A model generated the notes under the pieces. The model had not been told where the DNA came from. It ran no database searches and saw only the letters and a list, made by a program, of their open reading frames with translations. Shown piece after piece: positions 2,025 to 23,005 of a stretch of 24,676 bases of DNA. The stretch's first letter is position 1. The number at the start of each line of letters is the position of its first letter. Position numbers and translations under genes: made by a program. Source of the stretch: a virus; IMG/VR virus record IMGVR_UViG_3300042914_003092, positions 1 through 24,676 of that record, one strand, 5' to 3'.

Positions 2025-2045
2025 ATACCTTTTACCTCGTATAAT

Positions 2046-4861: not shown

Positions 4862-5667
4862 TCTTTAATTTTTTTAATTCTATCAATTAGTTCGAATATT
4901 TTTACTTTTGGGATATCGGTAATAACATTAAAGTTTTCTGCTCCATCAAACTTTTCTTTGATCAATTTCTTTTTAAGAATATCAAATGTAATCCCTTTAT
5001 CTTTCATTGTCTTTTCTAAAAGATTTTGTGGAGATGTTGGATTTTCTATCGTAGTACTAGAATCATCCAGTAATTTAGCATCACCAAGCTCTTCCTGAGA
5101 GACGATATTAATTTTAAGAAAATTACGGACACAACGAACAAATGCTCGATTCTCCGCGATTGCAGCTAGAAAGAATCTGGCGAAAGATTTAGTGTTATTA
5201 GAAGTGGCATCGGCAAGAGCTTCAAATGCTATCTCTCTGCCACCGGTCTCGTAATTAGGAATCCATATAATTCTGCAGCTTGTAGCAAAATAATTTTCTG
5301 TTGCAGCAACAACTTTGTATTCTACAGTTGTATAGCCTCTAATTTGAGCTAATTCTTTAATTCCACCAAGGAGTATGAGAAGATCTTTATCTTCTAATTT
5401 TGAAACATCTGTCTCTTGAGTCTTTTGACGATTTGGAACAAGGTACTCTGTTTTAACCATCTTTCTCCAATTAATCGTACCATCTTCGTTATATATATAA
5501 GTAATATTATTATTCTCTAATAGACCGTATTGATTTCTTGTGATAATATTAGGAGGTGTTTGAGTGACTGGTTTACTAGTCAATTCAAAAGTCTGAGATA
5601 CATGATTAATTAATTCAGAACTACCAATTGAAATTGTCTCTTCGTTATCTTTAATTTTTGGGCTCAT
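4858..5667 (-). CDS. Putative single-strand annealing protein (Rad52-like)
   Basis: The protein is 269 residues from the ATG at 5667; a TTG at 5697 would add ten residues, but that TTG lies within the candidate promoter, so ATG is preferred. The middle carries the pattern of Rad52/Sak-type annealing proteins: a W-R-K-M start, GYTTVEYKVVAATENYFATSC (a strand rich in phage annealing proteins), then an alanine-rich helix with ADATSNNTK and AAIAENRAFVRCVRNFL, comparable to the A-E-T-R-A-xx-R-A-x-R helix of that superfamily. The C-terminal 70 residues are helical and look like a separate small domain (KDKGITFDILKKKLIKEKF). With a RecA-like recombinase and nuclease elsewhere in the block, annealing on phage DNA is plausible. 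Similarity is by pattern only; an unrelated fold cannot be excluded. Confidence 0.55.
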   Translation of the reverse strand: MSPKIKDNEETISIGSSELINHVSQTFELTSKPVTQTPPNIITRNQYGLLENNNITYIYNEDGTINWRKMVKTEYLVPNRQKTQETDVSKLEDKDLLILLGGIKELAQIRGYTTVEYKVVAATENYFATSCRIIWIPNYETGGREIAFEALADATSNNTKSFARFFLAAIAENRAFVRCVRNFLKINIVSQEELGDAKLLDDSSTTIENPTSPQNLLEKTMKDKGITFDILKKKLIKEKFDGAENFNVITDIPKVKIFELIDRIKKIKD

Positions 5668-5673
5668 TTTATG

Positions 5674-5702
5674 ATGATAGCATGCTTTATATTTCAAGTC
5701 AA
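5674..5702 (-). promoter_or_regulatory. Extended -10 promoter predicting a leaderless mRNA for the gene starting at 5667
   Basis: On the minus strand TTGACT (5702-5697) is followed after exactly 17 bases by TATCAT (5679-5674), preceded by TGC (extended -10). Six bases later comes the ATG at 5667, so the expected start site falls on the A of the start codon. The promoter overlaps the last codons and stop of the preceding glycosyltransferase gene. No Shine-Dalgarno sequence precedes the ATG. Confidence 0.65.
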
Positions 5703-6845
5703 CTTAAAAATATAGAAATTATCACTTTCTTTCCAAAACTCTGGATCATCGACCACTTTATTTCCAGTTCTATTTAGCCAATCATATCTTGATATAAATT
5801 GACCTTCTGAAGAGTGTAGTACTCTTGAAGATTTATAATAAAGATTATCTACGGTTTCAATATTTGTATCTTTTTTTGTTTTATGCTTTTTATTTACTAT
5901 TAAATTATAGTCCATGTAATCTAATTTATATTTATTTAATATATTATCTTCTAGGAAAGAAAGTAGGACATAATTTATTGAATTATTTTTTAAAGTTTTA
6001 ACAAAATTAACATCATTATTTTCATCAATAATATAGATTAATTGATTGATATTTTTGCGATATTTTTGTATAAGATCTTTTTTAATTGGTTTATTCGTAA
6101 AGACAATTGATTTTCTTAAAGACACAATACTCTCAAAAGACTTTTCATTAAAAAAATAATCCATTCTGATGATTGGATTTTCGATTGGTATAGTATTTAT
6201 ATTAATATTTTCATCAGGTATAATTTCAAAACTTTTAACATTATAATCTAAACCAAAATATATTGTCGTAGGTAATTTTGAATGTTTTATATTTAATAAT
6301 TTTAAAATTGATTCTGCAATCTCTTCTGGTTTTATTGTATCTATTGATTTAGGAGATTCTACTTGAGAATAGGAGGGTTTTTTATTACCAACTCTTTCAT
6401 AGCCTTTTAAAAGTACATGCTTATTTTTATCACCAAAATGTGGTCCGGCTACATTTGGATTACTTATACTGTAAAGTGAGACTATGGGTTTATTGAAATG
6501 AGAAGCTAGATGCACTGAGAGGCTATCCGCTCCAAAATGTAAAATACCATTCTCTATGACATATGCTAATTGATTTAAAGTAGTTTGACCTAAAATACTC
6601 ATTGTGCCATTTACGGCTTTCTCTTCTTTCGTGCCAACTTGTAAAATATGTATATTTTCTTTCAATAAATATGGATGTATAATAGCTATTACTTCTTGCC
6701 AGTAAGAATAATTTCTAGAATCATAAGGCGTTTGTGCTTGGAAAGTTATGTAGCTTTCTTTTGGTAAAGGAAAGAATTTTGTATATATAAATGGCTTGTC
6801 AATCTTTGATCCTGTATTAGTAGCATATGTGTCTAGAAGTCTCAT
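5694..6845 (-). CDS. C-terminal half of a GT9 (heptosyltransferase-type) glycosyltransferase plus unknown domain
   Basis: A 383-residue protein. Residues about 1-185 match only the C-terminal, donor-binding half of GT9 enzymes (ADP-heptose:LPS transferase family): a linker helix (LLDTYATNTG), a strand starting SYITFQAQTP, then GQTTLNQLAYVIENG, and GADSLSVHLASHFNKPIVSLY (about 105-125), the GT9 hallmark D/S-x-G-x-x-H-x-A-x-A. The matching N-terminal half is found at the end of the preceding gene (residues 535-640 there), 14 bases upstream. The remaining 190 residues form no domain I recognise. No zinc or membrane features are seen. The two halves may assemble in trans, or the break may be a recent mutation; the separation at a domain boundary with a clean ATG favours a working split. 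Confidence 0.7.
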   Translation of the reverse strand: MRLLDTYATNTGSKIDKPFIYTKFFPLPKESYITFQAQTPYDSRNYSYWQEVIAIIHPYLLKENIHILQVGTKEEKAVNGTMSILGQTTLNQLAYVIENGILHFGADSLSVHLASHFNKPIVSLYSISNPNVAGPHFGDKNKHVLLKGYERVGNKKPSYSQVESPKSIDTIKPEEIAESILKLLNIKHSKLPTTIYFGLDYNVKSFEIIPDENININTIPIENPIIRMDYFFNEKSFESIVSLRKSIVFTNKPIKKDLIQKYRKNINQLIYIIDENNDVNFVKTLKNNSINYVLLSFLEDNILNKYKLDYMDYNLIVNKKHKTKKDTNIETVDNLYYKSSRVLHSSEGQFISRYDWLNRTGNKVVDDPEFWKESDNFYIFKLT

Positions 6846-6859
6846 TTAAATATTTTATA

Positions 6860-8773: not shown

Positions 8774-8775
8774 AA

Positions 8776-9318
8776 TTACCAAAGTTCGCTATCTTCTTGT
8801 GAATCTGATTTATCTGAATTTTGGGCTGATTTTGAATTTTTTATTTTCTTAATCGCTTCAACCTCTTGAGCCTTAAAAATAGAGTTTAGTGCGTGGGTAA
8901 GAAATTCTTTCAATAAACGAGCTTCATTAAAATAAAAGCCAAGTAAAAATGATTGTTTATTCTCTATATTATCTTTGCTTTCTTTATTTACGCTATAAGA
9001 AAATCCGACTTGTTTATCGTCTTTAATATATGGAGAGAATTTAATTTTTGTTATTTGTTTATCAGAAGAATGATAAGCTGAAAACTCTACATTTTTATCT
9101 AGCGCTTCTAAAAGGCCAGCTACTTCTGTCATTGAGAATTTTACTCTTGCGCTCTTTTGTGGATTATCTTTATTATCTGAGAACGAACCAGTTTTTGTTG
9201 CTTCATTCCAAGAGCTTTGTTTAATTAATGAACTCCAGACGGAGCCATCTTTTGAATTTACGCTGAAACTACAAGCTGTGCCTGTATTTTTACTATTTGG
9301 TTTATAAAATGATATCAT
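8776..9318 (-). CDS. Probable single-stranded DNA-binding protein with acidic C-terminal tail
   Basis: A 180-residue protein beginning ISFYKPNSKNTGTACSFSVN, with alternating strands (VKFSMTEVAGLLEAL, VEFSAYHSS, TKIKFSPYI, VGFSYSVN) followed by a long helix (NEARLLKEFLTHALNSIF). The layout of beta strands with a terminal helix recalls whirly/PC4-type ssDNA-binding proteins of phages, although I cannot confirm homology. The C terminus is low-complexity and acidic, ending QEDSELW; phage and bacterial SSBs commonly end in an acidic tail with a last aromatic residue that recruits partners. It follows the polymerase gene and has its own promoter, fitting a protein needed in large amounts. A basic lysine patch (IKKIKNSKS) precedes the tail. 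Confidence 0.55.
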   Translation of the reverse strand: MISFYKPNSKNTGTACSFSVNSKDGSVWSSLIKQSSWNEATKTGSFSDNKDNPQKSARVKFSMTEVAGLLEALDKNVEFSAYHSSDKQITKIKFSPYIKDDKQVGFSYSVNKESKDNIENKQSFLLGFYFNEARLLKEFLTHALNSIFKAQEVEAIKKIKNSKSAQNSDKSDSQEDSELW

Positions 9319-9326
9319 ATTATCTA

Positions 9327-9355
9327 ATGTTAGCAGATACTTTTAAAAAAGTCAA
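9327..9355 (-). promoter_or_regulatory. Extended -10 promoter for the SSB-like gene, near-leaderless
   Basis: TTGACT (9355-9350), 17 bases, then TAACAT (9332-9327) with TGC directly before it. The ATG follows after 8 bases at 9318, leaving a predicted leader of about two bases. The -35 overlaps the last bases of the polymerase gene. A short inverted repeat (9339-9352) lies in the spacer. Confidence 0.65.
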
Positions 9356-11946
9356 TTATTTTTATCTATTTTCTTTAAATCATTTAACTTCATGTATATT
9401 TCGTGATCTTGAATGGCTACTAAGTCTGCAAATATACAATCATTTTTCTTTAATCCTTTAACTATTACAATATTACCTTCTTCGAAAGCTTTATTATTTA
9501 ATAGTTTATTATTTTCAATATTATCATTAAATATAAGAGCATTGATTGATGAAGTTTCATCGGATATCTTTAACCTAACATACCTAGTCTTCTTTTCGTT
9601 TTTAGATACGCCAGAGTAAACTTCTTCTATTTGACCTACAAAAGCAATCTTAGAATTAATAGGTTCTTCAGCTAAATCATAAATATATTTTAAATTCTCT
9701 CTTTTCTCAGAAAATATCTCTTTTAGATTTTTATTATAAGTATAACCTAGTAGCTTTTTCTCGTAATACCAATTAGCGAAACTTTCACTTTTACTATTTT
9801 GATTATAGATTTTTAGATATGGGTCATACTTATTTTTAATTGTATTTAATCTAGTATCTTTAATTACTATATGATTCTTTTCGTCAGTAAATTTATTTAA
9901 ATGTTTAATTATCTTAATTAAGTCATAATCAAATTTCTCAGCGAAAGAGATTACGTATTTCTTTTCTTTTGAGGTTAAGACATTCCAAAGTTGAGCTTCC
10001 AATACTATTTTACTTCTAGATTGATTAAATCCACTTAAAGCGCCAGCTTGAATTAAAGCTGATAATACTCCAATATTAAGATCAGCCTCTTCTGCTGCTT
10101 GAAAAATTTCAAATTTATTAGAATATTTATTACGAAAACTATTTAGTTTTTCTATAGACTTATCCGAAATACCTTTAATTGATAGAAGTCCAAATCTTAT
10201 GTCTTTATCTTCGATAGAGAAATCCATATCCGATTTAATGATATGAGGTGGTAATAATTCTATACCAAACTCATGCATTTCTTTCTGAATCTTGGAAATT
10301 TCTCCAATTGGATCAGGTTCATTTCTACTCATCTTGAGTAAAGATAAGAAAAATTGTTGGGGATAGTTAAATTTAAGATAGATTGTTACTGCTGCTAAAG
10401 CTGCGTAGGCAAGAGAATGAGACTTATTAAATGAGTAGTTCGCAGAATCTTCCATAATTTTCCATAGAATTTCTCCGACTTCTTTTGGTAATTTATTCTG
10501 CTTAATCTTGGACTCAATTTTCTTTTGCCAAGCTTTAATTTCATCAATCTTTTTCTTTCCAACGATTCTCCTTAAAATTTCTGCTTCATCAAGAGTAAAT
10601 CCGATCTTATGAGCCATTTGCATTAATTGCTCTTGATAAAGTGCAACTCCACCAGTATGTTTTAAGGTGTCATCAAAGAAAGGATGAATTCCTTCGTAAT
10701 CTCCAGTATTTGTGTATTTTGCATATTTATCTACGAATTGTAAAGCTCCAGGTCTCGCAAGAGCAAGAACTCCACTTAGTTCTTCTAAGTTCTTTGGTTT
10801 TACTTTTTGACAGACTTTAAAATTTGTATCTGCTTCGATTTGAAAAAGTCCATGAGGAGATTTCAAGTCTTGAAGATTTCTATAAATTGATTCATGATTT
10901 AGATCAATGTCTTGAATTTTTATTCCAATATTTTTGCATACGTCATGAACTACCGACACACTTCTTAAACCTAAAATATCAAGCTTAATATTAAAAACAC
11001 TAACCCAATTCATATCAAAACTTGATACTGGTTCTTTATCTGAGGAAAATTCTGTAGGGCAGACTTTTTCTAAATCATCATATGATAGCAAAACTCCAGA
11101 TGGATGTACGCCTTTATTTTTAATTAGATCTCTTAGCTTTAAAGCAATTTCATATACCTCTTTATTTTCATCGCACCATTCTTTAAATTTTGGTACTTCC
11201 TCATAGGCAGTTGTAATATCTTTAACTTGGCCGAATATTTTTGGAATTAAAGAGGAGATCATTGTCATTTCTTCTTCGGTTTTTTCACCAATAATTTTTC
11301 CACACTCTTTAATTAATAGTTTTCCACTTAAAGTATTCAGAGTAAGAATTTTACTTGTTTTACCTCTGAATTTATTCTCAAGATATTCTAATACTTTGTG
11401 GCGATTATAATAACAAATATCAAGATCTACGTCACACATTAAACTGCCATCTAGATAGGTTATTCCATCAATAACCTGCTTTTTAGCACGAATCTTAGAT
11501 ATAAATCTTTCAAAATAAAGGTTATATTTAACTGGATCAATTCTTGTCACGCCAATGAGATATAAAATTAATGAACCAGCGGCAGAACCTCTACCTAATC
11601 CAATTGGTATATTATTAGTTTTACAAAAATTAATTACGTCCCAAACTAAAAGGATATAATCAATAAAGCCTAGCTCTCTTAGAGTTTCCAACTCGTACTT
11701 TGCGCGATCTACATATTTTTTATATTCTGGTAAAGATTTATCTATTTTTAGTTCTTTAAACCCATTTAATGACAAGGCTCTAAGAAAGTCGTAATTTGTA
11801 ACATCTTCACTAAGATTAAGATGTCTTTTAGATGAAGATTCGATAGTAAATTCTGGAAGCCTTACTCCATGTAGGCCTAAATCTACATCTTCAAATTTAG
11901 AAGAAAAATTTTTGTCTTCTAAGAAATTATTCAAATTTGCCTTCAT
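9352..11946 (-). CDS. DNA polymerase III alpha subunit, polymerase part without PHP domain
   Basis: An 864-residue C-family polymerase (DnaE type). Motifs in order: GLGRGSAAGS (116-125), the catalytic aspartates in DVDLD (D174 and D176, equivalent to E. coli D401 and D403), HPSGV (281-285), the third aspartate D323 in KLDILGLRS, FQIEADTNF, ALARPGAL, LYQEQLMQMAHKIGFT, LRRIVGKKK and the fingers motif SFNKSHSLAYAALAA. An OB-fold nucleic-acid-binding domain is near 740-850 (KIAFVGQIEEVYSG...). The usual N-terminal PHP domain is missing: the protein starts in the linker that follows PHP (LGLHGVRLPEF), and a separate PHP gene lies two genes upstream. It extends DNA primers as the phage replicative polymerase. 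The ATG lies inside the end of the preceding 71-residue gene (20-base overlap). Confidence 0.95.
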   Translation of the reverse strand: MKANLNNFLEDKNFSSKFEDVDLGLHGVRLPEFTIESSSKRHLNLSEDVTNYDFLRALSLNGFKELKIDKSLPEYKKYVDRAKYELETLRELGFIDYILLVWDVINFCKTNNIPIGLGRGSAAGSLILYLIGVTRIDPVKYNLYFERFISKIRAKKQVIDGITYLDGSLMCDVDLDICYYNRHKVLEYLENKFRGKTSKILTLNTLSGKLLIKECGKIIGEKTEEEMTMISSLIPKIFGQVKDITTAYEEVPKFKEWCDENKEVYEIALKLRDLIKNKGVHPSGVLLSYDDLEKVCPTEFSSDKEPVSSFDMNWVSVFNIKLDILGLRSVSVVHDVCKNIGIKIQDIDLNHESIYRNLQDLKSPHGLFQIEADTNFKVCQKVKPKNLEELSGVLALARPGALQFVDKYAKYTNTGDYEGIHPFFDDTLKHTGGVALYQEQLMQMAHKIGFTLDEAEILRRIVGKKKIDEIKAWQKKIESKIKQNKLPKEVGEILWKIMEDSANYSFNKSHSLAYAALAAVTIYLKFNYPQQFFLSLLKMSRNEPDPIGEISKIQKEMHEFGIELLPPHIIKSDMDFSIEDKDIRFGLLSIKGISDKSIEKLNSFRNKYSNKFEIFQAAEEADLNIGVLSALIQAGALSGFNQSRSKIVLEAQLWNVLTSKEKKYVISFAEKFDYDLIKIIKHLNKFTDEKNHIVIKDTRLNTIKNKYDPYLKIYNQNSKSESFANWYYEKKLLGYTYNKNLKEIFSEKRENLKYIYDLAEEPINSKIAFVGQIEEVYSGVSKNEKKTRYVRLKISDETSSINALIFNDNIENNKLLNNKAFEEGNIVIVKGLKKNDCIFADLVAIQDHEIYMKLNDLKKIDKNN

Positions 11947-12142: not shown

Positions 12143-12143
12143 G

Positions 12144-12782
12144 TTATACCTCTATTTGCCATTTCAATTTATTCCATACTTTTATATTTAAGTCAAGATC
12201 GTTTATTGCATCATGAAGTCTATCGTAATCATGATCGATTCCATTCTCTTTACCTAGAGTAGTTAGAGAACTCTTTACATTTTTTCTTTTTGTATGGTAT
12301 ATTTTATATTGATACTCAATTAAACTTTCTTTTGGGCTATAAGGTATTCCGTATTTTATACCCCTAGCTATTGTATTTGTATCAATAAATTTACTGACTA
12401 AATGACTCCAGTTGCATCCCATAAATTTATAATACTCTTTTATTAAGTAAATATCAAATCCAATAGTATTGTGACCTATAATATAGTCTGCATGGTCTAA
12501 CCAATCTTTAATAGTTGGAAATATTTCTTTTGGATCATGTCCTTCTTTTTGAACTTTCTTATGATCGTATCTAGTAATTCTTGCTGCGTCTTGGCTAATT
12601 TTTAAATCAGTTTGCCATTTAAGATAAAAATTCTTTTCATCAATCTTTTGATCGCCCTTAACTTTTATCATAGCAATTTGCCAAGGTAAATTATGGCAAA
12701 AGTTTAAACAGAGATTAAATGTCTCGCAATCAATAAATACGAGATTCTTTTTCTTATCATATCTTAAAAGGTGTTCGTCCAT
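12144..12782 (-). CDS. DEDDh 3'-5' exonuclease (DnaQ-like proofreading subunit candidate)
   Basis: A 212-residue protein with all three exonuclease motifs: Exo I FIDCETF (D18, E20), Exo II IIGHNTIGFD (D110) and Exo III HDAINDLD (H190, D195). The H-x4-D spacing puts it in the DEDDh class with DnaQ and PolC proofreading domains. It lies between the PHP gene and the polymerase gene; in Gram-positive PolC the exonuclease is inserted inside the PHP domain of one polypeptide, so the gene order here is a broken-up version of that idea. GGAG lies 8 bases before the ATG, and the ATG overlaps the upstream stop (TAATG), so translation is from a polycistronic message. Proofreading for the phage polymerase is the likely role. 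Confidence 0.9.
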   Translation of the reverse strand: MDEHLLRYDKKKNLVFIDCETFNLCLNFCHNLPWQIAMIKVKGDQKIDEKNFYLKWQTDLKISQDAARITRYDHKKVQKEGHDPKEIFPTIKDWLDHADYIIGHNTIGFDIYLIKEYYKFMGCNWSHLVSKFIDTNTIARGIKYGIPYSPKESLIEYQYKIYHTKRKNVKSSLTTLGKENGIDHDYDRLHDAINDLDLNIKVWNKLKWQIEV

Positions 12783-13528
12783 TATTTTTTCTCCAAGTAA
12801 CTTTCAAAACAGAAATCATTACTAGACATGTGCTCAAGTTCTGGCTTATTTAGTATGCTTCTATTATTAATACAACGAAATGTTAAATATGTTTTAAAAT
12901 CTTTCTTTTTCTTATAGTAAATACTTTTAGTCTTATAGATCTCTAGATTATTTTGTTCGGCATATTTCTGCATTTTATTATGAACGATAGAATCAAATGG
13001 CAAATCATTTTCTTCTACAAAAGCTACTGGTTTAGTAAAATTAAACTGTGGAATGCATATAGAATTTCTTAAAGTATTATTAAATATAAAAGAATCGTAG
13101 AAAGGTATACATAATATTAAATTATCAGACCAATTCTTCTGAATAGTCTCGTAATCTAGTCTTGGTTCATAATAGAATCCAGTTTTCGCTGCTATACTAA
13201 ATAGTTTAGTCAAGGACTCATGACCTTTTTTATTCTTAAAAAATATTACAATTTTAGATGTTTTTTGTCTAGATTCATCTGTCTTATCATTCATTGATTC
13301 GGTAACTGAAAGTCTTAATCCATAATTTAACTTAATATTGTTAGATTTTGTATTGGTATAAGCTTCTAAGAAAGAAGACATGTTATCCTCTACTAAATAT
13401 ATCTCTTTTAATTTATTCTCTTTAGCTATTTGAATTATTGAGTCTGGGTAGTCATCTACTTCACTCTTATCTTCTAAAGTCAAAATTGATCTTCCTAGAG
13501 AATAGTGAGATTTAAATAAAGGTATCAT
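12782..13528 (-). CDS. Separate PHP domain of DNA polymerase III alpha, probably inactive
   Basis: A 248-residue protein from the ATG at 13528. A TTG at 13564 would add 12 residues, but the family normally begins at the sequence IPL...HxxYS, which follows this ATG directly, and the TTG is part of the promoter. It has the layout of the polymerase PHP domain: start IPLFKSHYSLGRSILT, AKENKLKEIYLVEDN (canonical A-xx-G-x-xx-lalTD), IKLNYGLRLSV (P-I-x-G-x-E), IVIFFKNKKGHESLTKLFSIA (L-L-A-x-N-xx-GyxnL), and an end NDFCFESYLEKK equal to the E-F-yLkS-xEEM linker. The HxH metal ligands of active PHP (HxHSxYS) are replaced (L-F-K-S-H-Y-S), so a structural role is more likely than phosphatase or nuclease activity. 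It probably docks onto the polymerase encoded at 9352-11946. Confidence 0.8.
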   Translation of the reverse strand: MIPLFKSHYSLGRSILTLEDKSEVDDYPDSIIQIAKENKLKEIYLVEDNMSSFLEAYTNTKSNNIKLNYGLRLSVTESMNDKTDESRQKTSKIVIFFKNKKGHESLTKLFSIAAKTGFYYEPRLDYETIQKNWSDNLILCIPFYDSFIFNNTLRNSICIPQFNFTKPVAFVEENDLPFDSIVHNKMQKYAEQNNLEIYKTKSIYYKKKKDFKTYLTFRCINNRSILNKPELEHMSSNDFCFESYLEKK

Positions 13529-13535
13529 TTTCTTA

Positions 13536-13564
13536 AGTATAACACACTTATCTTCAAGAATCAA
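13536..13564 (-). promoter_or_regulatory. Extended -10 promoter for the PHP-exonuclease-polymerase genes, near-leaderless
   Basis: TTGATT (13564-13559), 17 bases, then TATACT (13541-13536) preceded by TGT. The ATG at 13528 follows after 7 bases, so transcription would start on or beside the start codon. The promoter overlaps the end of the upstream nuclease gene and explains why a longer TTG-initiated frame exists. Confidence 0.6.
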
Positions 13565-15392: not shown

Positions 15393-16036
15393 TCCAAAGC
15401 CTCACTTATAGTAGGGAACTCTTTCACAAATATTTTCTTGCATCTTTCGGCAATTTCTCTGTGTTCTTTCTGAGTATTTTGTTCGGTTCTTAATTCGATA
15501 TAATGAATCCAACTTCTTAGAGATCCTTTCATATACATTGTGGTTTGGGTAGTTAAAGGTAGTATCATTCTAGCGACTTCTTTTGCTACGCCATTTTCTA
15601 TCATGGTTTCATAACAATGTTGTGATATTGATAAAGATTCTATTAAGAGTTCATTAATCTTATCATAAGCTTCTGTACCTGTTGGCAATAATTTTTCTCC
15701 AACTTGTCTATTTTTATCTCCTTGTAATCTTAATTCAACATCTTCGTATTCATTAGCAAGACTATACCTTTGACTAAATTCTTGAAATGAGAAAGATCTG
15801 TGACGTAAGATCTGAGCTGCGATAGCTCTACTAGTTTTTATTTCTACGCACATGTCTACTAGTTCAAATGGACTCCAATGTTTGTGTTTTATTAGGAATC
15901 TTAATAATTTTGGTGCAGTCTCTATATTCATTTGATTAGAGGGATTACTTACTCTAGCGCAATAAGCTACTAGATCTTCTGCATTTTTTATTCCTTTAAT
16001 CTCTGGTTTTGTAATTGATATTAATTCTACATTCAT
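15380..16036 (-). CDS. thyX: Flavin-dependent thymidylate synthase
   Basis: A 218-residue protein of standard ThyX length. The ThyX signature RHRx7SxR is present as RHRSFSFQEFSQR (78-90). Other conserved parts are CARVSNP near the start, HWSPFELVDMCVEIKTSRAIAAQILRH and, near the end, SWIHYIELRTEQNTQKEHREIAE. It makes dTMP from dUMP using FAD, NADPH and methylenetetrahydrofolate, supplying thymidine for an AT-rich genome. The ATG overlaps the dnaB stop (ATGA) and has GGAG 7 bases upstream, so it is translated from the dnaB message. Confidence 0.95.
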   Translation of the reverse strand: MNVELISITKPEIKGIKNAEDLVAYCARVSNPSNQMNIETAPKLLRFLIKHKHWSPFELVDMCVEIKTSRAIAAQILRHRSFSFQEFSQRYSLANEYEDVELRLQGDKNRQVGEKLLPTGTEAYDKINELLIESLSISQHCYETMIENGVAKEVARMILPLTTQTTMYMKGSLRSWIHYIELRTEQNTQKEHREIAERCKKIFVKEFPTISEALEWNK

Positions 16037-17517
16037 AATAGTTCTCCATCGTTTGCATTTTGATCGGTGAGTTCGTACTGTTCTCTTTGCCTTTCAGCGA
16101 CATCTCTTAAGGAGCCTCGTTCCTCAATATTAAAATTTGTTACTTGATAATTAAGATAATTTTGAGCCCAGATCTCTTTGCCAGCAGAGTCTAATCTTCT
16201 TACCAAGTCTTGATGACCAGCAGCATCCTTTCCTTGAAACCTAGTCTTAGTTGGAATTAATTTATGAGTTCCAAATGCTTGTCCGTCTAAAGTGACCTCA
16301 TCAAGAGTTTTTCTTCTAAATATTGCAACAAACGATGCAAACCATTGTAGTCTATCGGATAGTGAAATAACTGAACTATCATCAACTACATTATTTGAAT
16401 TACGATTAAAATTTTCTCCTGTTCTATTCAACTGCATCGCTGTAATAATTGGACAATGAATTTCCTCTGAGATTCTTTTAAGTTTATCAATTTTTTCACC
16501 AATCGCTTGATGCTCTGCCCAATTTTGGCTAACTTTTTCCCCAGTTAATTTAATATAATCATATGCTATCATCGCTTGATTTCCACGACCGACTTTAGAA
16601 AGATACCATCTACGAATGATAGAACATACTTGGTCAATATTTTTATTACCTACATGATAATGAAAATACTCATACGTTTTGACTTTTGCCCAAGCAGCTC
16701 TAACCTTCTTTGTCATCTCTTCATTTTTACGCCAATTACCAGTTTCAAGATACCAAACGGGTACATCAGTTAATGATGCAACCATTCTTAATTGAATATC
16801 TACTGTTTGCATTTCAGTATCGAGAATTAAAGTTTTGGTTTTGTTCTTAGGGTTAATAGAAGTTTTAAAACATATATCATTTAGCCACGTAGATTTTCCT
16901 TGGCCTGGACGACTTGCAATAGCGTAAATATTTCCATTCTTTAGTCCACCATACATTCTGTTAAATTCAGAATAGGGAGTTATTAATCCTGTATCATCCT
17001 TTGGTGCATTTCCTATCTCTTCTACAAGATCTTCGACCTCGGCAAAAATATTAATAGGCATATCATTTTCTGAATATGCCGATATTTTTTTATTATAGAT
17101 TTGATCTATTTTACCAATAATCTGATCTACAGAGTCCTCTGAGTTTTTATTAACATAATCTTTTAATTTATCTGCTGTTTGAGATATTTCTCTACGAATC
17201 CTTAATTTAATTAATTCCTTACAAGCATTTACTGTGGCTTCCTCCGTAATTTGAGAGAAGCTTAAATTATCAATATAATCAAAAATATTAATTTCATCCT
17301 TAAATGTAATTCCAAGGTTTTTAATCTTTTCTGCTAACAATACTTTGTCTACGTTTTCACCTTTATGTTTAATATTTTTAAAGACGGTATATATAGAAGA
17401 ATGAACATCATTATAGAAGTCATTCTCGGTTAAAAATACATCAATATCTGCGAAAAGATCTTGATGTTTAAGTAAGCCGCTTAATACGTGTCTTTCTACT
17501 TGTAAGGAGTAAATCAT
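16033..17517 (-). CDS. dnaB: Replicative DNA helicase, DnaB family
   Basis: 494 residues from the ATG at 17517. An in-frame ATG eight codons earlier (17541) is less likely because the family begins with the E-R-x-V-L-x-x-L helix (VERHVLSGLL), which follows the second ATG closely, and the earlier codons overlap the promoter. The N-terminal DnaB domain spans about 1-110 and the RecA-like motor the rest: Walker A SRPGQGKST (about 202-210), Walker-B-like TLILDTEM, AYDYIKLTG and the CPIITAMQLNR motif with its loop. It unwinds DNA at the replication fork as a hexamer and should pair with the phage primase. Its own extended -10 promoter lies just upstream, and thyX is coupled to its stop. Confidence 0.95.
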   Translation of the reverse strand: MIYSLQVERHVLSGLLKHQDLFADIDVFLTENDFYNDVHSSIYTVFKNIKHKGENVDKVLLAEKIKNLGITFKDEINIFDYIDNLSFSQITEEATVNACKELIKLRIRREISQTADKLKDYVNKNSEDSVDQIIGKIDQIYNKKISAYSENDMPINIFAEVEDLVEEIGNAPKDDTGLITPYSEFNRMYGGLKNGNIYAIASRPGQGKSTWLNDICFKTSINPKNKTKTLILDTEMQTVDIQLRMVASLTDVPVWYLETGNWRKNEEMTKKVRAAWAKVKTYEYFHYHVGNKNIDQVCSIIRRWYLSKVGRGNQAMIAYDYIKLTGEKVSQNWAEHQAIGEKIDKLKRISEEIHCPIITAMQLNRTGENFNRNSNNVVDDSSVISLSDRLQWFASFVAIFRRKTLDEVTLDGQAFGTHKLIPTKTRFQGKDAAGHQDLVRRLDSAGKEIWAQNYLNYQVTNFNIEERGSLRDVAERQREQYELTDQNANDGELL

Positions 17518-17526
17518 CCAATATAT

Positions 17527-17555
17527 ATAATACCAAAACAAAAAATAAAAGTCAA
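17527..17555 (-). promoter_or_regulatory. Extended -10 promoter upstream of dnaB
   Basis: TTGACT (17555-17550), 17 bases, then TATTAT (17532-17527) preceded by TGG. The ATG at 17517 is 9 bases downstream, so the predicted leader is about 3 bases. It occupies the gap after the small gene at 17559-17834, with no ribosome binding site between promoter and start. Confidence 0.65.
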
Positions 17556-17558
17556 GTT

Positions 17559-17834: not shown

Positions 17835-17849
17835 CAAAAACTTTTACAC

Positions 17850-18269: not shown

Positions 18270-19408
18270 GATGCAAGAGTATTAATAAATTTAGTATAGA
18301 AATAGTCTGTAATTGGTTTATTTTCTTCCAGATACAATCTGAGATTATCTATCCCTTGATGTTGCTTCTTTAATTCTATATTGGATTTCTTAAGTTCTTC
18401 TATGATCTCATCAGAAAAGGTTACCCAAGCTCCTTTTGCTGTAGCAAATTCCCAAGCCAAAATTTGATCTATTATTTCGTATTCTTTCCATACTGAAGAA
18501 CCTTCTTTACGACCATATTTTATGGGATACTGAATCTTTGAATTTGTTGATTCATTTGTGGATTTTTTAATAGCGATCTTTACATTATGACCGATAATTT
18601 TATTCTTTACTGGATCGTACTTTTCATTTGGCTTCTCAAGAATAAGGTCTTTATTATATCTTGGTTCAAATTCAAGAATCCAGTTCGCAAAATGCAATAA
18701 AGCATTACCGCCTGTTGCCGTGGTCTGCCTAACTTCTTTGTTAGCTGCATATGGGTCAAGTTTAATGTCGGAGCGAACTTGACTAATAAAGATTGCCATA
18801 TGACCACGTTTGGACAATGCAAGTGAGATTTTTTTCATAAGCATAGAAGATATAACTGCTCCACCAGCTACTTTTGTTGCTTCACTTAAAGTTTTTTCCT
18901 TATCGCCTTTGGTGATAAGACCATCAACTGAATCAAGTATAAAAATATATCTTTTACTTTCATCATTGGATTGAATCAAGTCTTTCATCAATTCCGATAC
19001 TGTCTCAAATACATTACATTCAAAAACGAAACAGGTCCCATCAACCCATTCTTTAGGGTCAGTTACAAATTTAATTCCAGACCTTTCTTTTATTTCTTTA
19101 CTGAGTCGGCCTTCTGCTTTAAAAAGCAACGCTCTAGAACTTTCTACTGTTTTTAGAAAATTTTTAGCAACTTCTAATGCTTCAGAAGTTTTACCACCTT
19201 CATTCATACCAATAAATCTATGTAATCCAGGACATAGTCCTCCGCTAGTAGCAATATCAAGGTTTAAACTGCCTGTAGATACTTTATAATAAATCTCGTC
19301 TTCAAAATTATAATGATCTTCTTTATTGTCTTTTAAAAAGGATAATAATCTATCTGATGCAGATGGACCAGTAGATTGGACGGCTTCTTCTTTAGGTTTT
19401 CTTCCCAT
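18266..19408 (-). CDS. RecA/UvsX-like recombinase
   Basis: A 380-residue protein. Walker A is GMNEGGKT (67-74), unusual beside the bacterial GPESSGKT; the catalytic-glutamate region reads FKAEG; Walker B is YIFILDSVDGLI (D159). The RecA-specific FISQVRSD segment, followed by the DNA-binding loop 2 region TTATGGNALLHFANWILEF, is intact. The N-terminal 15 residues are basic and low-complexity. The C-terminal 100 residues differ from bacterial RecA and resemble phage forms. It forms filaments on ssDNA and drives strand exchange in phage recombination and repair. The start overlaps the preceding small gene by 17 bases, and the nuclease gene follows with an ATGA overlap. Confidence 0.92.
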   Translation of the reverse strand: MGRKPKEEAVQSTGPSASDRLLSFLKDNKEDHYNFEDEIYYKVSTGSLNLDIATSGGLCPGLHRFIGMNEGGKTSEALEVAKNFLKTVESSRALLFKAEGRLSKEIKERSGIKFVTDPKEWVDGTCFVFECNVFETVSELMKDLIQSNDESKRYIFILDSVDGLITKGDKEKTLSEATKVAGGAVISSMLMKKISLALSKRGHMAIFISQVRSDIKLDPYAANKEVRQTTATGGNALLHFANWILEFEPRYNKDLILEKPNEKYDPVKNKIIGHNVKIAIKKSTNESTNSKIQYPIKYGRKEGSSVWKEYEIIDQILAWEFATAKGAWVTFSDEIIEELKKSNIELKKQHQGIDNLRLYLEENKPITDYFYTKFINTLAS

Positions 19409-19730
19409 ATCTTATAAATTGTACCAAAGTTTTAGGCTTTTGACAAACATTTTTATCTTCTCCGATTTTATTTTTGCTTAATATAACTTCTTCTTTATTT
19501 AAATTTAATTTAAATGCTTCATATTCTTTTAAAAGAAATGCTTTGCCTTCTGGTTTAAGAAACCAAGCTAATGAAGGAGGCGGACTACCTAATTCTTTTA
19601 AATTATTCCAGAATTCAAAACAATTAAACTTTTTAATTAATTTCTGTGCAATTTTTATTTCTCTTGCCCAATTAATATTACCTCTTATAAATTTTTTTAC
19701 TATCAACTGACAAAGCTTATGTTTGGACAT
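19392..19730 (-). CDS. Hypothetical protein preceding the recombinase gene
   Basis: A 112-residue basic, helical protein with no recognised family. Visible pieces: a basic N terminus (MSKHKLCQLIVKKF), a helix pair INWAREIKIAQKLIKKF, then FWNNLKELGSPPPSLAWFLKPEGKAFLLKEYEAF and a lysine-rich tail. The compact run with S-LAWFLKPEG may be a DNA- or protein-binding unit. Its ATG overlaps the stop of the SDR gene (TAATG), and its end overlaps the recombinase start. It is a candidate loader or mediator for the recombinase by position alone. Confidence 0.7.
   Translation of the reverse strand: MSKHKLCQLIVKKFIRGNINWAREIKIAQKLIKKFNCFEFWNNLKELGSPPPSLAWFLKPEGKAFLLKEYEAFKLNLNKEEVILSKNKIGEDKNVCQKPKTLVQFIRYGKKT
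19418..19446 (-). promoter_or_regulatory. Extended -10 promoter upstream of the recombinase gene
   Basis: TTGTCA (19446-19441), 17 bases, then TACAAT (19423-19418) preceded by TGG. The ATG at 19408 is 9 bases downstream. The whole element lies inside the coding end of the preceding 112-residue gene. Confidence 0.55.
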
Positions 19731-20551
19731 TATATAAGTCTATCAACTCCTTGATAAATGTCAATCTCTTTTTTAAATCCTAATTTTTTAATCTTTTCAT
19801 TGTCTAAATACATGTCTTTAACCTGTACAATCTTATGAAATTCTGGTTGATCTATGGCAGTTATTGTTGATTTTGAATTAGTTTGTTTAATAGTATAGTC
19901 TATAATATCTTTAAATATTAAAGGTTCGCCATTTCCAATATTATATATTTCATCTAGACTTCCTTTATCAATACAAAGCTTTATAGCTCTACAGGCATCT
20001 TCGACATGAATGTAATCTCTTATAAATTTTCCATTAAAATATAAATTAATATTTTGATTATCTTTTATCTGATTAATTAAATATGTTAGAGCATTCTTTT
20101 TTTTTGAGACACCGCAGTCTTTGTTTCCGTATACATTTGCCAGCCGTAGTATTCTATATCTTATATTAAATGTTTTACAATAACTTATAAGTAAATCTTC
20201 TGCACATTTTTTTGTAATTGAATAGAAGCCCTTGGGATTGCAGCAATAACTTTCTTTAGCTGGAAGCTCTACATCTCCATAAACAAACCAAGAACTCACA
20301 AAATTAAAAACAATATCCTTATTTTTACAATTTTCTAATACATTAATCAGTTTAGTTAAATTAACATTTATATCTTTATATGGATCTTCAAGAACATTAT
20401 AGTTATCAGTTGTGCTAATCATATATAATATATTCTTATAGAAAGGAACGTTATGTTCTCTAGGATGAATATATGTATCTGATTTATATAGACTATAAAA
20501 ATTACTACCTACAAAACCTGTTCCACCAAAAAGATCAATCTTTGGTATCAT
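19730..20551 (-). CDS. NAD(P)-dependent SDR epimerase/reductase acting on nucleotide sugar
   Basis: 273 residues from the ATG at 20551, which sits directly before the Rossmann strand (IDLFGGTGFVGSNF); a GTG five codons earlier is the alternative. Extended short-chain dehydrogenase: GGTGFVGS nucleotide loop, FVSSWFVYGD with the catalytic Ser, YSITKKCAE with the Tyr-x3-Lys pair, LRLANVYG and GKFIRDYIHVEDACRAI for the sugar nucleotide. Placed directly after the RfbH-like dehydrase, it may carry out the last reduction or epimerisation in making a dideoxyhexose, as ColC or RfbJ-type enzymes do, but the exact substrate cannot be read from sequence. The start lies within the coding end of the RfbH-like gene. 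Confidence 0.8.
   Translation of the reverse strand: MIPKIDLFGGTGFVGSNFYSLYKSDTYIHPREHNVPFYKNILYMISTTDNYNVLEDPYKDINVNLTKLINVLENCKNKDIVFNFVSSWFVYGDVELPAKESYCCNPKGFYSITKKCAEDLLISYCKTFNIRYRILRLANVYGNKDCGVSKKKNALTYLINQIKDNQNINLYFNGKFIRDYIHVEDACRAIKLCIDKGSLDEIYNIGNGEPLIFKDIIDYTIKQTNSKSTITAIDQPEFHKIVQVKDMYLDNEKIKKLGFKKEIDIYQGVDRLI
19737..19764 (-). promoter_or_regulatory. Candidate promoter for the 112-residue gene and recombinase, leaderless
   Basis: TTGACA (19764-19759), 16 bases, then TAGACT (19742-19737) preceded by TGA; ATG at 19730 after 6 bases. The -35 is consensus, the -10 is 4 of 6. It lies in the end of the SDR gene and marks the switch from sugar genes to replication genes. Confidence 0.5.
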
Positions 20552-21839
20552 ATCTATCAATAACACTTGCCAAATACTCTATATTGCTTTCGCTTATAGT
20601 TGGAGAGCATCCAACAAAAAATACTTTTTCTAGCACCGCATTTGCATTCGTATAGCTTTCCCAATTTTCTAGATGCTTATATGCTGGATGCACCAAGATA
20701 TTTCCAGCGAAGTAATTTCTTGTTTGTATACCATTTTCTTCCAAGTAATTAACTAGTTTATTTTTTGATAGATAATCGCTACAAATAATTGGGACTCCAA
20801 ACCAAGATATGTCTGCTTTAGGAAAAAAAGAGGGAAACTTAAGTCCATCTAATCTACTAAGAATATTTTGAATTTTATCTTTATTGGAGACTCTTTTTAG
20901 ATGAAATTCTTGCATCTTTTTTAATTGAACTAGACCTATAGCTCCTTGTAAATCAAGAGGTTTTAGATTGTAGCCAATTTGCGTAAAGAAGTATTTATGG
21001 TCAATGTTATATGGAATTTCCTTAATCCAATTCGAAAATCTTTGATTACAGCTTCCATTCTTTAATAAATTGCAACTACCTATACAATAACAGTCTCTGC
21101 CCCACCACGCAAAACTCCTCGCTAGATTTACTACTTCTTCTATATCAGAAGAGACCATGCCACCTTCTCCAGTAGTAAGATGATGCGCTGGATAAAAAGA
21201 ACAACTTGAAGCTATACAATATTCATTTAAATGTTTACCATCCCATTTACTTCCAAAACTATCGCATCCATCAAGTATTAAATGTATATTATGCTTTTTT
21301 GAAATTTCAATTAGTTTATCAAAATCTGGCGGATTTCCTAATACTGGCGATATAAATATTGCTTTAGTGTTTTTTGTAATTTTTGCTTCTAATTGATTTA
21401 GATCAAAATTTAACGTTTCAAATTCAATATCTACAAATACTGGCTTTAAATTATTCTGAATAACTGGATTTAGTGTTGTAGGAAAACCGACTACAGATAT
21501 TAATATTTCATCCTCGTCTTTCCAATTGAGATGCTTCTTAAGTGCTGCGATCATAACTAAATTGGCAGAGCTTCCAGAATTTACCATTACAGAATATTTT
21601 TGATTAATTTTTTTAGAGAATTCTTTTTCAAATTTGGCTACATTTTCGCCACTAGCAAGCCATTTTCCAAATAACAATGTGTCTATTGCTTCTACAATTT
21701 CTTCTTTTGTATATGATGGTCCACCATAGTATACTTTATTTTTAACATCTTTTAAATTATGACAGAATTGAGGTATGAATAGATTCTCCTCATTCTCAAG
21801 AGAAAGCAAGAAATTTAGTATTTTTTCTTTTCTAGACAT
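20535..21839 (-). CDS. RfbH-type PLP/Fe-S sugar 3-dehydrase (DegT/DnrJ/EryC1/StrS family)
   Basis: A 434-residue protein of the size of RfbH/AscC/DdhC. The family's PLP-binding lysine is replaced by histidine in SFYPAHHLTTGEGG (H220), the mark of 3-dehydrases that remove a hydroxyl rather than transfer an amine. The cysteines of the iron-sulfur site are present in WWGRDCYC...C...SCNQRF (C250, C252, C256, C264), as in the CDP-6-deoxy-hexulose 3-dehydrase group, with four bases more of insertion between the last two than the usual form. Other hallmarks: NSGSSANLVM, GFPTTLNPVIQNNLKPVFVD, DGCDSFGS, GYNLKPLDLQGAIG and SWFGVPI. It would make a 4-keto-3,6-dideoxyhexose. The reductase partner (E3-type flavoprotein) is not in the window. 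It overlaps neighbours on both sides. Confidence 0.85.
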   Translation of the reverse strand: MSRKEKILNFLLSLENEENLFIPQFCHNLKDVKNKVYYGGPSYTKEEIVEAIDTLLFGKWLASGENVAKFEKEFSKKINQKYSVMVNSGSSANLVMIAALKKHLNWKDEDEILISVVGFPTTLNPVIQNNLKPVFVDIEFETLNFDLNQLEAKITKNTKAIFISPVLGNPPDFDKLIEISKKHNIHLILDGCDSFGSKWDGKHLNEYCIASSCSFYPAHHLTTGEGGMVSSDIEEVVNLARSFAWWGRDCYCIGSCNLLKNGSCNQRFSNWIKEIPYNIDHKYFFTQIGYNLKPLDLQGAIGLVQLKKMQEFHLKRVSNKDKIQNILSRLDGLKFPSFFPKADISWFGVPIICSDYLSKNKLVNYLEENGIQTRNYFAGNILVHPAYKHLENWESYTNANAVLEKVFFVGCSPTISESNIEYLASVIDRYDTKD

Positions 21840-22971
21840 TAGATATATCCCATTCTACCATCTTTTTGATTAGTTTGTCAAATGAAATCTTTGGCTTCCA
21901 ATTTAACTCTTGTCTTGCTTTATCAGAATTTCCTAATAGAATATCTACTTCTGCTGGCCTGTAGAATTTAGGATTTATTTGTATTAATATTCTCTTGCTG
22001 CGATCTACGAATACAGTATGTTCATCTTTACCAATCCATTCGCCTTCTATTCCTGCAAATTTAAATGCTTTTTCTGCAAATTCTTTAATCGTATGTGTTT
22101 CATTTGATGAGAATATATATTCTTTTGGTATACCATCATAATTTGAATTATATTTATCTTGGTTTAACATCATCCATACTCCCTCTACAAAATCCTCCGC
22201 ATCGCTCCAATCTCTTTTAGCTTCTATATTTCCAAGTTCTAATGGTTCGAATTGTTTATTACTTTTTATTGCGTGGTAGATTCTAGCTACATTTTTTGTT
22301 ATTTTTCTTGTTACAAATTCCTCGCCCCTTCTAATACCTTCGTGATTAAAAAGCCAACCTTGAATTGCATAGATATTATAAGACTCTCTATATACTTTAA
22401 CTAATTGTCTAGAGGCAGCTTTACTTGCTCCATATGGACTTCTTGGTTTAAGTGGATGATTTTCGTCTTGAGGAGTATATTGAACATTTCCAAATTCCTC
22501 ACTTGATCCAGCCTGATAAAGTCTACAAGAAGGTTTATATAATCTAATCGCTTCTAAGATATCTAAAACAGCGGTTGAATTTGTTGCCCAAGTCTGACGA
22601 GCAAAGTCCCAACTACTAGCTACAAAACTTTGTGCAGCAAAATTAATAAAGTAATCTGGTTTTAATTTTTCTACTGTTCTAGCTATGGCGTGAGAATCTG
22701 TTAAATCAAAATTTATTAAATGAAATCTATCAGATTTAATGTGTCTAATGTTTTCGTGATTATATACGCTTAATCTTCGAACTCCACCAAATATGAGATA
22801 ATCAGTATTCTTAAGTAGAAAATCTACCATATGGCTTCCATCTTGCCCAGTAACACCAGTTATAACAATTACATTCTTGTTTTTAATTAATTTACTTGCA
22901 TCTTCGATATTTAATATATTACAAGTATCTATTTTTTTACCATAATAGGTCTCTTGAATATTGATGCTCAT
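21832..22971 (-). CDS. gmd: GDP-mannose 4,6-dehydratase
   Basis: A 379-residue protein. GMD hallmarks: VITGVTGQDGSHMVDFLL, INFAAQSFVASSW, GSSEEFGNVQYTPQDE, PRSPYGASKAASRQLV (Tyr-x3-Lys), LFNHEGIRRGEEFVTRKIT, LGNIEAKRDWSDAEDFVEGVW and YRPAEVDILLGNSDKARQELNW. It makes GDP-4-keto-6-deoxymannose from GDP-mannose. Relative to bacterial GMD, which begins at the Rossmann strand, it has about 30 extra N-terminal residues (IQETYYGKKIDTCNILNIED) with no other ATG, so the extension is real. The next gene encodes a 3-dehydrase, as in colitose pathways, though that enzyme is of RfbH rather than ColD type. Confidence 0.92.
   Translation of the reverse strand: MSINIQETYYGKKIDTCNILNIEDASKLIKNKNVIVITGVTGQDGSHMVDFLLKNTDYLIFGGVRRLSVYNHENIRHIKSDRFHLINFDLTDSHAIARTVEKLKPDYFINFAAQSFVASSWDFARQTWATNSTAVLDILEAIRLYKPSCRLYQAGSSEEFGNVQYTPQDENHPLKPRSPYGASKAASRQLVKVYRESYNIYAIQGWLFNHEGIRRGEEFVTRKITKNVARIYHAIKSNKQFEPLELGNIEAKRDWSDAEDFVEGVWMMLNQDKYNSNYDGIPKEYIFSSNETHTIKEFAEKAFKFAGIEGEWIGKDEHTVFVDRSKRILIQINPKFYRPAEVDILLGNSDKARQELNWKPKISFDKLIKKMVEWDISNV
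21852..21881 (-). promoter_or_regulatory. Candidate extended -10 promoter before the RfbH-like gene
   Basis: TTGACA (21881-21876), 18 bases, then TAGAAT (21857-21852) preceded by TGG; ATG at 21839 after 12 bases. It lies in the last codons of the GDP-mannose dehydratase gene, so coding constraint may explain it. Confidence 0.35.
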
Positions 22972-22976
22972 AAGTT

Positions 22977-23005
22977 ATTTTAGTATATTCTTTTATAAAA
23001 ATCAA
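22977..23005 (-). promoter_or_regulatory. Candidate promoter before the GDP-mannose dehydratase gene
   Basis: TTGATT (23005-23000), 17 bases, then TAAAAT (22982-22977) with only 5 bases to the ATG at 22971. No TGN extension. The region is very AT-rich, so this is one of the weaker examples of the design. Confidence 0.3.

Follow-up and report, generated by a model that had tools for sequence, protein, structure and literature searches.

Bacterial leaderless genes are marked by a TANNNT box about 12 bp upstream of the start codon, as described in PMC3160421, and a survey of cellular genomes reported them in 86 of 89 Actinobacteria, at an average of 19% of genes, and in 1 of 37 Bacteroidetes/Chlorobi. 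Among phages, lambda cI and genes of P2 are given as leaderless (PMC9031893, PMC4633059), and a remark in PMC5312081 has phage transcripts as often leaderless. In mycobacteria an ATG or GTG at +1 is reported to suffice (PMC4633059), and in Lactococcus cremoris the leaders are described as bimodal, either shorter than 5 nucleotides (nt) or about 40 nt, with none between 4 and 14 nt (PMC10986495). The promoter read by the gp36 sigma factor of phage phiEco32 is, in the account of PMC8948821, a single element (tAATGTAtA) without a -35 box, which serves middle and late genes and from which transcription starts 6-8 bp downstream. Here we consider IMG/VR virus record IMGVR_UViG_3300042914_003092, positions 1 to 24,676 (24,676 bases, about 30% G+C; referred to as the window), together with its relatives, in which sigma70-type promoter-like sites (class 1) and a single element, GTGTAA (class 2), lie a few nucleotides upstream of start codons. 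To our knowledge, leaderless phage genes are known mostly as single cases.

On the positions of these elements and their conservation, it is very probable that many promoter-proximal genes across a broad lineage of uncultivated phages are leaderless or nearly so, and that two promoter classes share this design. As with lambda cI and the P2 genes, the phage mRNA is predicted to begin at the AUG; those are described as isolated genes, whereas here the layout is lineage-wide and involves two promoter classes. Among the open-access papers listed, a part of those that matched, judged by title and the start of the abstract, none describes a phage lineage of such design; subscription papers and preprints lay outside that scope. 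The two promoter types converge on a fixed distance from the start codon within one lineage, in groups with about 50% polymerase identity. If the reading is true, it would allow gene starts, transcription units and expression classes of uncultivated phages to be called by an independent route, would predict the behaviour of the host ribosome and offer a clue to the host, and would make these phages a natural system in which to study what conditions favour leaderless translation.

Class 1 sites in the window and their conservation

An initial annotation of the window had pointed to nine sites, each with a TTG-type -35 hexamer and a TANNNT -10 ending a few bases before a start codon (5667, 9318, 13528, 17517, 19408, 19730, 21839, 22971 and, on the plus strand, 2926), and had taken them for promoters of leaderless or near-leaderless genes. 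All nine are present at the distances it gave (Table 1). A TGN before the -10, which it called usual, is found in seven of the nine but is not general, preceding the -10 in 22 of 89 TTGAC sites before open reading frames (ORFs) in five related contigs. When the form TTGNNN-N16-18-TGNTANNNT was sought on the minus strand of the window, seven of nine sites ended 6-12 nt before the ATG of a gene, for which a rough binomial estimate is about 5e-14; on the mostly non-coding plus strand none of four did so.

Table 1. Candidate class 1 promoters, class 2 elements and ribosome sites in the window (amino acids, aa; Shine-Dalgarno, SD)
Element	Position	Strand	Start codon and gene	Relatives and remarks
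Class 2, GTGTAA	2046..2051	-	21 nt before ATG 2024 (minor tail gene)	leadered case
GAGG	2035..2038	-	in leader of 2024 gene	SD core in 19/24 upstreams
Class 2, GTGTAA	2061..2066	+	9 nt before ATG 2076 (268 aa)	no PHROGs or Pfam match
Weak class 1, TTGAAA-N16-TATAAT	2890..2917	+	8 nt before ATG 2926	TTG-type -35 kept in 5/20 distinct upstreams
Class 2, GTGTAA	3710..3715	+	9 nt before ATG 3725 (378 aa)	no PHROGs or Pfam match
Class 1, TTGACT-N17-TATCAT	5674..5702	-	6 nt before ATG 5667	kept in 46/46 distinct orthologous upstreams, spacer 17 in all
Class 1, TTGACT-N17-TAACAT	9327..9355	-	8 nt before ATG 9318	kept in 66/67 distinct upstreams
GAGG	12149..12152	-	before ATG 12142 (71 aa gene)	SD core in 38/55 upstreams
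GGAG	12791..12794	-	before ATG 12782 (exonuclease subunit)	SD core in 35/65
Class 1, TTGATT-N17-TATACT	13536..13564	-	7 nt before ATG 13528 (split DNA polymerase, N-terminal part)	kept in 55/63
GAGG	15400..15403	-	before ATG 15392 (primase-like)	SD core in 50/58
GGAG	16044..16047	-	before ATG 16036 (thymidylate synthase-like)	SD core in 56/57
Class 1, TTGACT-N17-TATTAT	17527..17555	-	9 nt before ATG 17517 (DnaB-like helicase)	kept in 54/54
Class 2, GTGTAA	17844..17849	-	6 nt before TTG 17837 or 9 nt before GTG 17834	
Class 1, TTGTCA-N17-TACAAT	19418..19446	-	9 nt before ATG 19408 (UvsX/RecA-like)	overlaps upstream gene; kept in 42/48, partly confounded by coding constraint
Class 1, TTGACA-N16-TAGACT	19737..19764	-	6 nt before ATG 19730	overlaps upstream ORF; kept in 35/40 upstreams
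Promoter-like, TTGACA-N18-TAGAAT	21852..21881	-	12 nt before ATG 21839	probably upstream coding sequence
Class 1-like, TTGATT-N17-TAAAAT	22977..23005	-	5 nt before ATG 22971	overlaps end of gene 22980-23954; kept in 5/8 upstreams

It might be argued that such sites arise by chance, TANNNT being common in AT-rich DNA, and that starts were chosen to fit them, as three indeed were, with the motif in hand. The number of bare sigma70-like sites is moreover close to that in shuffled sequence (69 against 70.3, standard deviation 7.5, and 79 against 68.1, standard deviation 7.8) and not clearly above it, so that the signal lies in position rather than in number. It is in position that chance fails, being refuted by antisense, shuffled and scrambled positional controls and by conservation in relatives, and we give it practically no weight.

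Conservation was followed in the best 80 of 228 relatives, which are not independent of one another. Orthologues were taken by tblastn at 40% identity or more with a start no further than 9 nt from the projected start, identical upstreams were dropped, and a site was scored as kept if TTG-16/18-TANNNT ended 4-13 nt before the ATG. The four cleanest conserved sites (5667, 9318, 13528 and 17517) are mainly intergenic. Among the distinct upstreams, SD-type cores number 0 for 5667, 2 for 9318, 0 for 13528, 0 for 17517, 4 for 19408, 1 for 19730, 1 for 22971 and 0 for 2926. Over the 80 loci and the window, counting near-duplicates, 158 of 318 sense sites have their next ATG 5-10 nt downstream; the corresponding figures for the controls are 26 of 252 on the antisense strand and 48 of 421 in Markov-shuffled sequence.

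The start codons themselves are equally stable, the ATG being the start in all distinct relatives tested for 5667, 9318, 13528, 17517 and 19408, and the third codon position is the most variable from codon 2 on in the first four of these families. A longer in-frame start is lacking in 39/43 relatives for 5667, 65/69 for 9318, 30/48 for 13528, 49/51 for 17517 and 44/47 for 19408; for 5667, 13528 and 17517, where the initial annotation had preferred a shorter start over a longer frame, both lines of evidence bear it out.

Two of the coding-overlap sites need a separate word. The 19730 site has a spacer of 18 in 19 of the 35 relatives that keep it, and several of these resemble the coding string seen before 21839; the latter site is probably merely the C-terminal codons of the upstream epimerase-like gene, the peptide having been read by eye, and a string much like it also precedes other genes in relatives. 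A further site, TTGATA-N17-TATTAT inside the exonuclease gene (12457-12429), stands 6 nt before an in-frame ATG at 12422 and recurs in 42 distinct relatives, but was not counted because conserved codons largely fix its bases; an internal leaderless product from that ATG is conceivable.

The same layout across contigs and deeper groups

The initial annotation had also proposed a genome-wide test for enrichment of the motif 5-9 bases before start codons, and such an enrichment is seen both in five related contigs (G001, G003, G007, G008 and G018; 632 kb), whose start codons are mechanical ORF calls, and in three groups of loci. A 6-mer scan upstream of 1005 candidate ATGs of the contigs (up to two per ORF), with no motif supplied, brought out TTGACA at -36 to -34 (42 observed against 0.7 expected) and TTGACT (27 against 0.8), GTGTAA at -16 to -14 (46 against 0.5), and the SD words AAGGAG (20 against 0.7) and GGAGAA (23 against 1.0). 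The TTGACA peak places the -35 hexamer some 35 nt before the start codon.

An unconditioned scan of the same contigs found 255 TTGAC-N16-18-TANNNT sites, 83 of them with an ORF ATG 6-10 nt on; by distance there are 49 at 6 nt, 18 at 7 nt, 5 at 8 nt and 11 at 9-10 nt, followed by 2 at 11-19 nt and 9 at 20-39 nt. A TANNNT-type -10 thus lies about 12 bp before the start codon, as in the bacterial TA-led genes, in which it is read as a leaderless -10 box; those are described from cellular genomes, whereas this is a phage lineage in which most promoters with a start within 40 nt have the layout (83 against 9). The gap in distances is also much like the gap in leader lengths reported for L. cremoris, a cellular genome with measured 5' ends, whereas the leaders here are predicted and some in group C, one of the deeper groups, would be about 5-8 nt.

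Four scrambled -35 words gave no ATG at 6-10 nt in 373 sites. With spacers of 11-13, TTGAC had 1 of 166 sites at 6-10 nt and 36 at 11-13 nt, and with spacers of 21-23 it had 0 of 125 at 6-10 nt and 15 at 0-5 nt, a shift expected if the same promoters are read out of register. The sites have the TTGACA-like -35, spacer of 16-18 and TATAAT-like -10 of sigma70-type promoters, and their logo matches the sigma70 consensus in both boxes with a spacer of 16-17. Promoters of the Bacteroidota type have the consensus TTTG and TAnnTTTG. In the logos, made from sites picked by their sigma70 form, the positions after the -10 are A-rich and without TG, so that TTTG does not directly follow TAnn, and the 6-mer scan of the five contigs listed no TTTG-type word.

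Transcription from sigma70 promoters begins about 7 nt downstream of the -10, and a spacing of 6 nt would therefore put +1 on the A of the ATG. A pyrimidine directly precedes the ATG at 47 of 60 six-nt sites as against 229 of 392 other genes (p = 0.003), and the last of the six discriminator positions is the most pyrimidine-rich (0.78), a pattern that fits a predicted Y(-1)R(+1) start with A at +1.

Genuine promoters could nevertheless lie close to genes merely because these genomes are compact, with read-through transcripts and coupling giving most of the translation and leaderless RNAs mattering little. Tight gene contexts do hold 21 of 94 class 1 and 34 of 76 class 2 starts, and four window sites overlap the upstream gene. 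Compactness, however, predicts a spread of distances and not a peak at exactly 6 nt with only two sites at 11-19 nt, and 73 of the 94 class 1 starts follow a gap of at least 30 nt or head a unit, which leaves this account improbable.

The leaderless layout recurs in more distant relatives. Groups B and C (47 and 55 loci) were fetched with polymerases from two contigs of metagenome-assembled genomes (MAGs), which are about 50% identical to those of group A, to which the window belongs. Counting distinct TTGAC sites, with identical 50-mers dropped and orthologues still counted apart, an ATG follows at 6-10 nt in 189/482 sites of group A, 40/130 of group B and 93/301 of group C, as compared with 0/787, 0/275 and 3/463 for three scrambled words; at 20-39 nt there are 8, 0 and 6 sites. 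The top 6-mers in all three groups include TTGACA (windows from -37 to -35) and GTGTAA (windows from -16/-15), in loci that range from 27% to 43% G+C. Position and conservation together thus lend strong support to the predicted leaderless or near-leaderless layout.

A probable second promoter class

The initial annotation missed a second, probable promoter class, GTGTAA. The hexamer occurs only four times in the window, each time just upstream of a gene (Table 1), and the copy at 17844..17849 is present in the 14 of 53 distinct relatives inspected. On both strands of the five contigs it is not in excess overall (200 copies against 209 expected), and it is again position that distinguishes it: for 94 of the 200 copies an ORF of at least 50 aa starts 3-15 nt on, in 60 of these cases at 8-10 nt. 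Its fuller form is (A)GTGTAA(TA), mostly 8-10 nt before the start. A strict form, TTAAGTGTAA with an ATG 4-10 nt on, was abandoned after giving merely 6 matches in 5 of 23 records, which indicates that the class 2 core is shorter.

In the logo of 66 class 2 sites, positions upstream of GTGTAA carry at most 0.3 bits each and there is no -35. Class 2 is in this respect like the phiEco32 gp36 promoter, a single conserved element without a -35 where the sigma factor is encoded by the phage, and differs from it, as far as that system is described, in that the element is GTGTAATA, with no demonstrated kinship, and in that the start codon stands where +1 would fall. The lack of a -35, the near absence of information further upstream and a recogniser that is putative might suggest that the motifs serve not as promoters but as operators, as signals for RNA processing or as translation elements at a set distance from the start codon. 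Class 1, however, fits the sigma70 consensus with both boxes and a spacer of 16-17 and loses its signal when the -35 is scrambled, while single-element promoters read by a phage sigma have precedents and these phages carry sigma-like genes; we therefore regard a non-promoter role as very unlikely.

The classes were also compared by the genes that they precede. Ten class 1 proteins were scanned, with matches to a deoxynucleoside monophosphate (dNMP) kinase, dehydrogenases (two), a methyltransferase, an endonuclease and a DNA ligase, and four without a match. The 20 class 2 proteins scanned gave a weak portal match, a tape measure, two phrog_1084 members, an HNH endonuclease, a weak match to a virion structural protein, one protein with matches to families of unknown function and two ribonucleotide reductase (RNR) small subunits.

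The divergent genes 2024 (-) and 2076 (+) have between them, at 2046-2066 of the window, a pair of opposed class 2 elements, which make up an inverted repeat (ACACTT/AAGTGT) also found in relatives; the 2024 gene is leadered with a GAGG, and the 2076 gene is predicted to be leaderless. Several leadered class 2 genes of the five contigs have repeated AAAGG/AAGG words in a leader of 20-45 nt.

Sigma-like genes

The lineage encodes proteins that resemble sigma factors, as phiEco32 does. In group A, 8 of 11 records match Pfam Sigma70_r2 at E<=0.1, with 6 over the cut-off; in groups B and C together all 11 records do so at E<=0.01, with 7 over the cut-off. Often two proteins per record match, with open frames of about 200 aa and about 230-296 aa. 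Of two members checked, Pfam matched both, by region 2 alone, and the PHROGs sigma families matched one.

In G003 and G007 both sigma-like genes stand directly behind a class 1 gene: the smaller follows a 194-197-aa class 1 gene (the dNMP kinase in G003), and the larger a 146-aa class 1 gene whose -35 is TTGAAT or TTGAAA. In G008 the larger sigma gene follows a 149-aa class 1 gene; the smaller was not seen in such a place in G001, G008 or G018. A cascade in which host sigma70 reads class 1 and a phage sigma made from it reads class 2 is plausible, and class 2 is presumably read by the phage sigma, by analogy with phiEco32 gp36 (PMC8948821).

Shine-Dalgarno sites and internal genes

For genes that start inside operons the initial annotation had proposed SD-led initiation, naming GAGG or GGAG before 12142, 12782, 15392 and 16036. 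These sites are all present and their cores recur in relatives (Table 1), where promoter sites are found in 6/55, 3/65, 0/58 and 0/57 of the respective upstreams. As a general rule for internal genes the proposal holds in part only: an SD-like core stands before 128 of 499 other ORF starts (background 4.4%) and, where genes are tightly packed, before 91 of 318, so that many internal starts must rely on coupling or something else.

Where a promoter element lies further from the start, SD cores are more frequent, the 2024 gene with its GAGG being the case in the window. For class 2 they are found in 9/21 cases at 21-40 nt, 2/13 at 15-20 nt and 0/66 at 6-14 nt, and for class 1 in 4/15, 2/3 and 0/87, the zeros at 6-14 nt being partly built in, as so short an interval has no room for an SD.

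A model for transcription and translation, and points against it

In the model that we favour, RNA synthesis from both promoter classes would begin on the start codon or no more than about 4 nt from it. Observed are the positions and conservation of the elements, the start codons and the sigma-like genes; from these we infer promoter function, the RNA start points, the pairing of sigma factors with classes, early or late timing and the ribosome route. Class 1 would be a sigma70-type promoter (TTGACA/T, spacer 16-17, TANNNT) that ends 6-10 nt before the ATG of replication, nucleotide and other non-virion genes and is presumably read by the host sigma70 holoenzyme; class 2 would be a single element, found before portal, tape-measure and many unknown genes, whose presumed reader is a phage-encoded sigma. 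Initiation on the leaderless AUG would fall to 70S ribosomes or to some equivalent route, while some leadered and internal genes would use an SD (GAGG, GGAG, AAGG) and others probably coupling. Such a layout would make these phages dependent on an unusual mode of translation initiation. A bolder version, in which a whole lineage of large phages runs its infection mainly on leaderless mRNAs, from host-sigma (early) and phage-sigma (late) classes that both fire on the start codon, with translation via 70S/leaderless initiation throughout and a possible gain where SD-led initiation of the host is weakened, we find possible but rather doubtful.

Several observations weigh against this model in its parts. 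The next ORF ATG is at least 100 nt away for 135 of the 255 class 1 matches in the five contigs, and 93 of the 200 GTGTAA matches have no ORF ATG within 60 nt. In group C, 24/301 sites stand at 11-14 nt (controls 4/463), which would give leaders of about 5-8 nt, and sites at 0-5 nt occur in groups B (9/130) and C (5/301). Starts other than ATG make up 10 of 94 in class 1 and 19 of 76 in class 2, nine TTG among them, and TTG is reported not to have started leaderless translation in mycobacteria (PMC4633059). That SD cores precede none of the 94 class 1 and none of the 76 class 2 starts is partly built in, since the -10 or GTGTAA fills the place of the SD. No match was obtained for 11 of the 20 class 2 proteins scanned, and among the 66 class 2 sites with an ORF of 60 aa or more there are 5, one in each contig, that form the last codons of the gene preceding an RNR small subunit. 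These last were rejected as promoters, being upstream coding sequence with the frame judged by eye; the 354-aa gene that follows them gave an RNR small subunit match in both cases scanned. In G001 and G018 no sigma gene was seen behind a class 1 gene.

In the window itself, the third codon position is not the most variable in the 19408 family. Of the nine window sites, four (19408, 19730, 21839 and 22971) lie in upstream coding sequence, so that their conservation is partly that of the protein, probably only so at 21839, and the -35 of the 2926 site is seldom kept (Table 1).

Comparison with the wider virome

IMG/VR virome samples were drawn for layouts with 6 nt, 15 nt and a TG-extended -10, each of at least 120 stretches, and ratios are read within samples only. 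For TTGACA-N17-TATAAT, the ratio of leaderless (4-10 nt) to leadered (15-45 nt) starts is 12:24 in the 15-nt sample with the chosen sites removed and 9:49 in the TG-extended sample, as against 7:2 for the exact form in the 80 related loci; with the looser TTGAC form the five contigs have 83 sites at 6-10 nt against 9 at 20-39 nt. The comparison is rough, as the virome ratios stem from these samples alone and the distance bins differ. The leaderless layout looks like a minority elsewhere in the virome and dominant in this lineage, and promoters of the predicted leaderless kind do occur beyond it, as a minority. In the 6-nt sample (L122-L241), 80 of 124 sites have an ORF of at least 60 aa, or one that runs off the locus, beginning at the ATG 6 nt beyond TTGACA-N17-TATAAT; an ORF-opening ATG was found in 32 of 120 with the 15-nt layout.

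Possible hints of a host

A polymerase alignment placed four MAG contigs (L118-L121) at 49-53% identity, three labelled Flavobacteriaceae/Flavobacteriales and one Halobacteriovorax; these labels may point to a host or may reflect binning errors. In the four MAGs (13.2 Mb) there are 7 matches to TTGACA-N17-TANNAT-N6-ATG, one of them in phage contig L119, versus 1 for the reversed pattern, so that the bins are not rich in the exact class 1 form. The 180-aa phage protein (8776-9318) had no match when compared with genome contigs. A phage initiator tRNA was considered and rejected, since the CAU tRNAs of two contigs lack what we take to be initiator features; more initiator tRNA is elsewhere reported to favour leaderless translation (PMC9031893). 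The ribosomal protein bS21 was not found in 11 phage records, which are possibly fragments.

Gene content of the window and its relatives

The window encodes minor tail genes (Phage_tail_L and Phage_min_tail families), a split PolIII-type DNA polymerase, an exonuclease, a primase, a thymidylate synthase, a DnaB helicase, a UvsX/RecA-like protein and sugar genes. The gene at 4858-5667 has no PHROGs or Pfam match, and that at 8776-9318 has no PHROGs match and none among cultured phages. No cultured phage is close, the polymerase reaching at most about 35% identity among the best matches, with no matching record at 60% or more, and the tape measure about 25% among the cultured-phage matches listed. 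An identical polymerase is also found on the 73.8-kb contig L001, and the largest related contigs measure 172 kb in group A and 205 kb in the deeper groups. All three stop codons end the mechanically called ORFs.

The PolIII-type polymerase is split into an N-terminal part (12782-13528, matching the N-terminal region of phrog_405) and a core (9352-11946), with the exonuclease gene and the 71-aa gene in between. In G003 the gene at the DnaB position (L087:3234-5684) is 816 aa long as against 494 aa, possibly through an intein or insertion, and the best match of the window helicase in locus L009, from the same record as G003, begins only at residue 209. A tRNA-Ser with the anticodon ACT, unusual for bacteria, is reported in four of the five contigs (G001, G003, G007 and G018).

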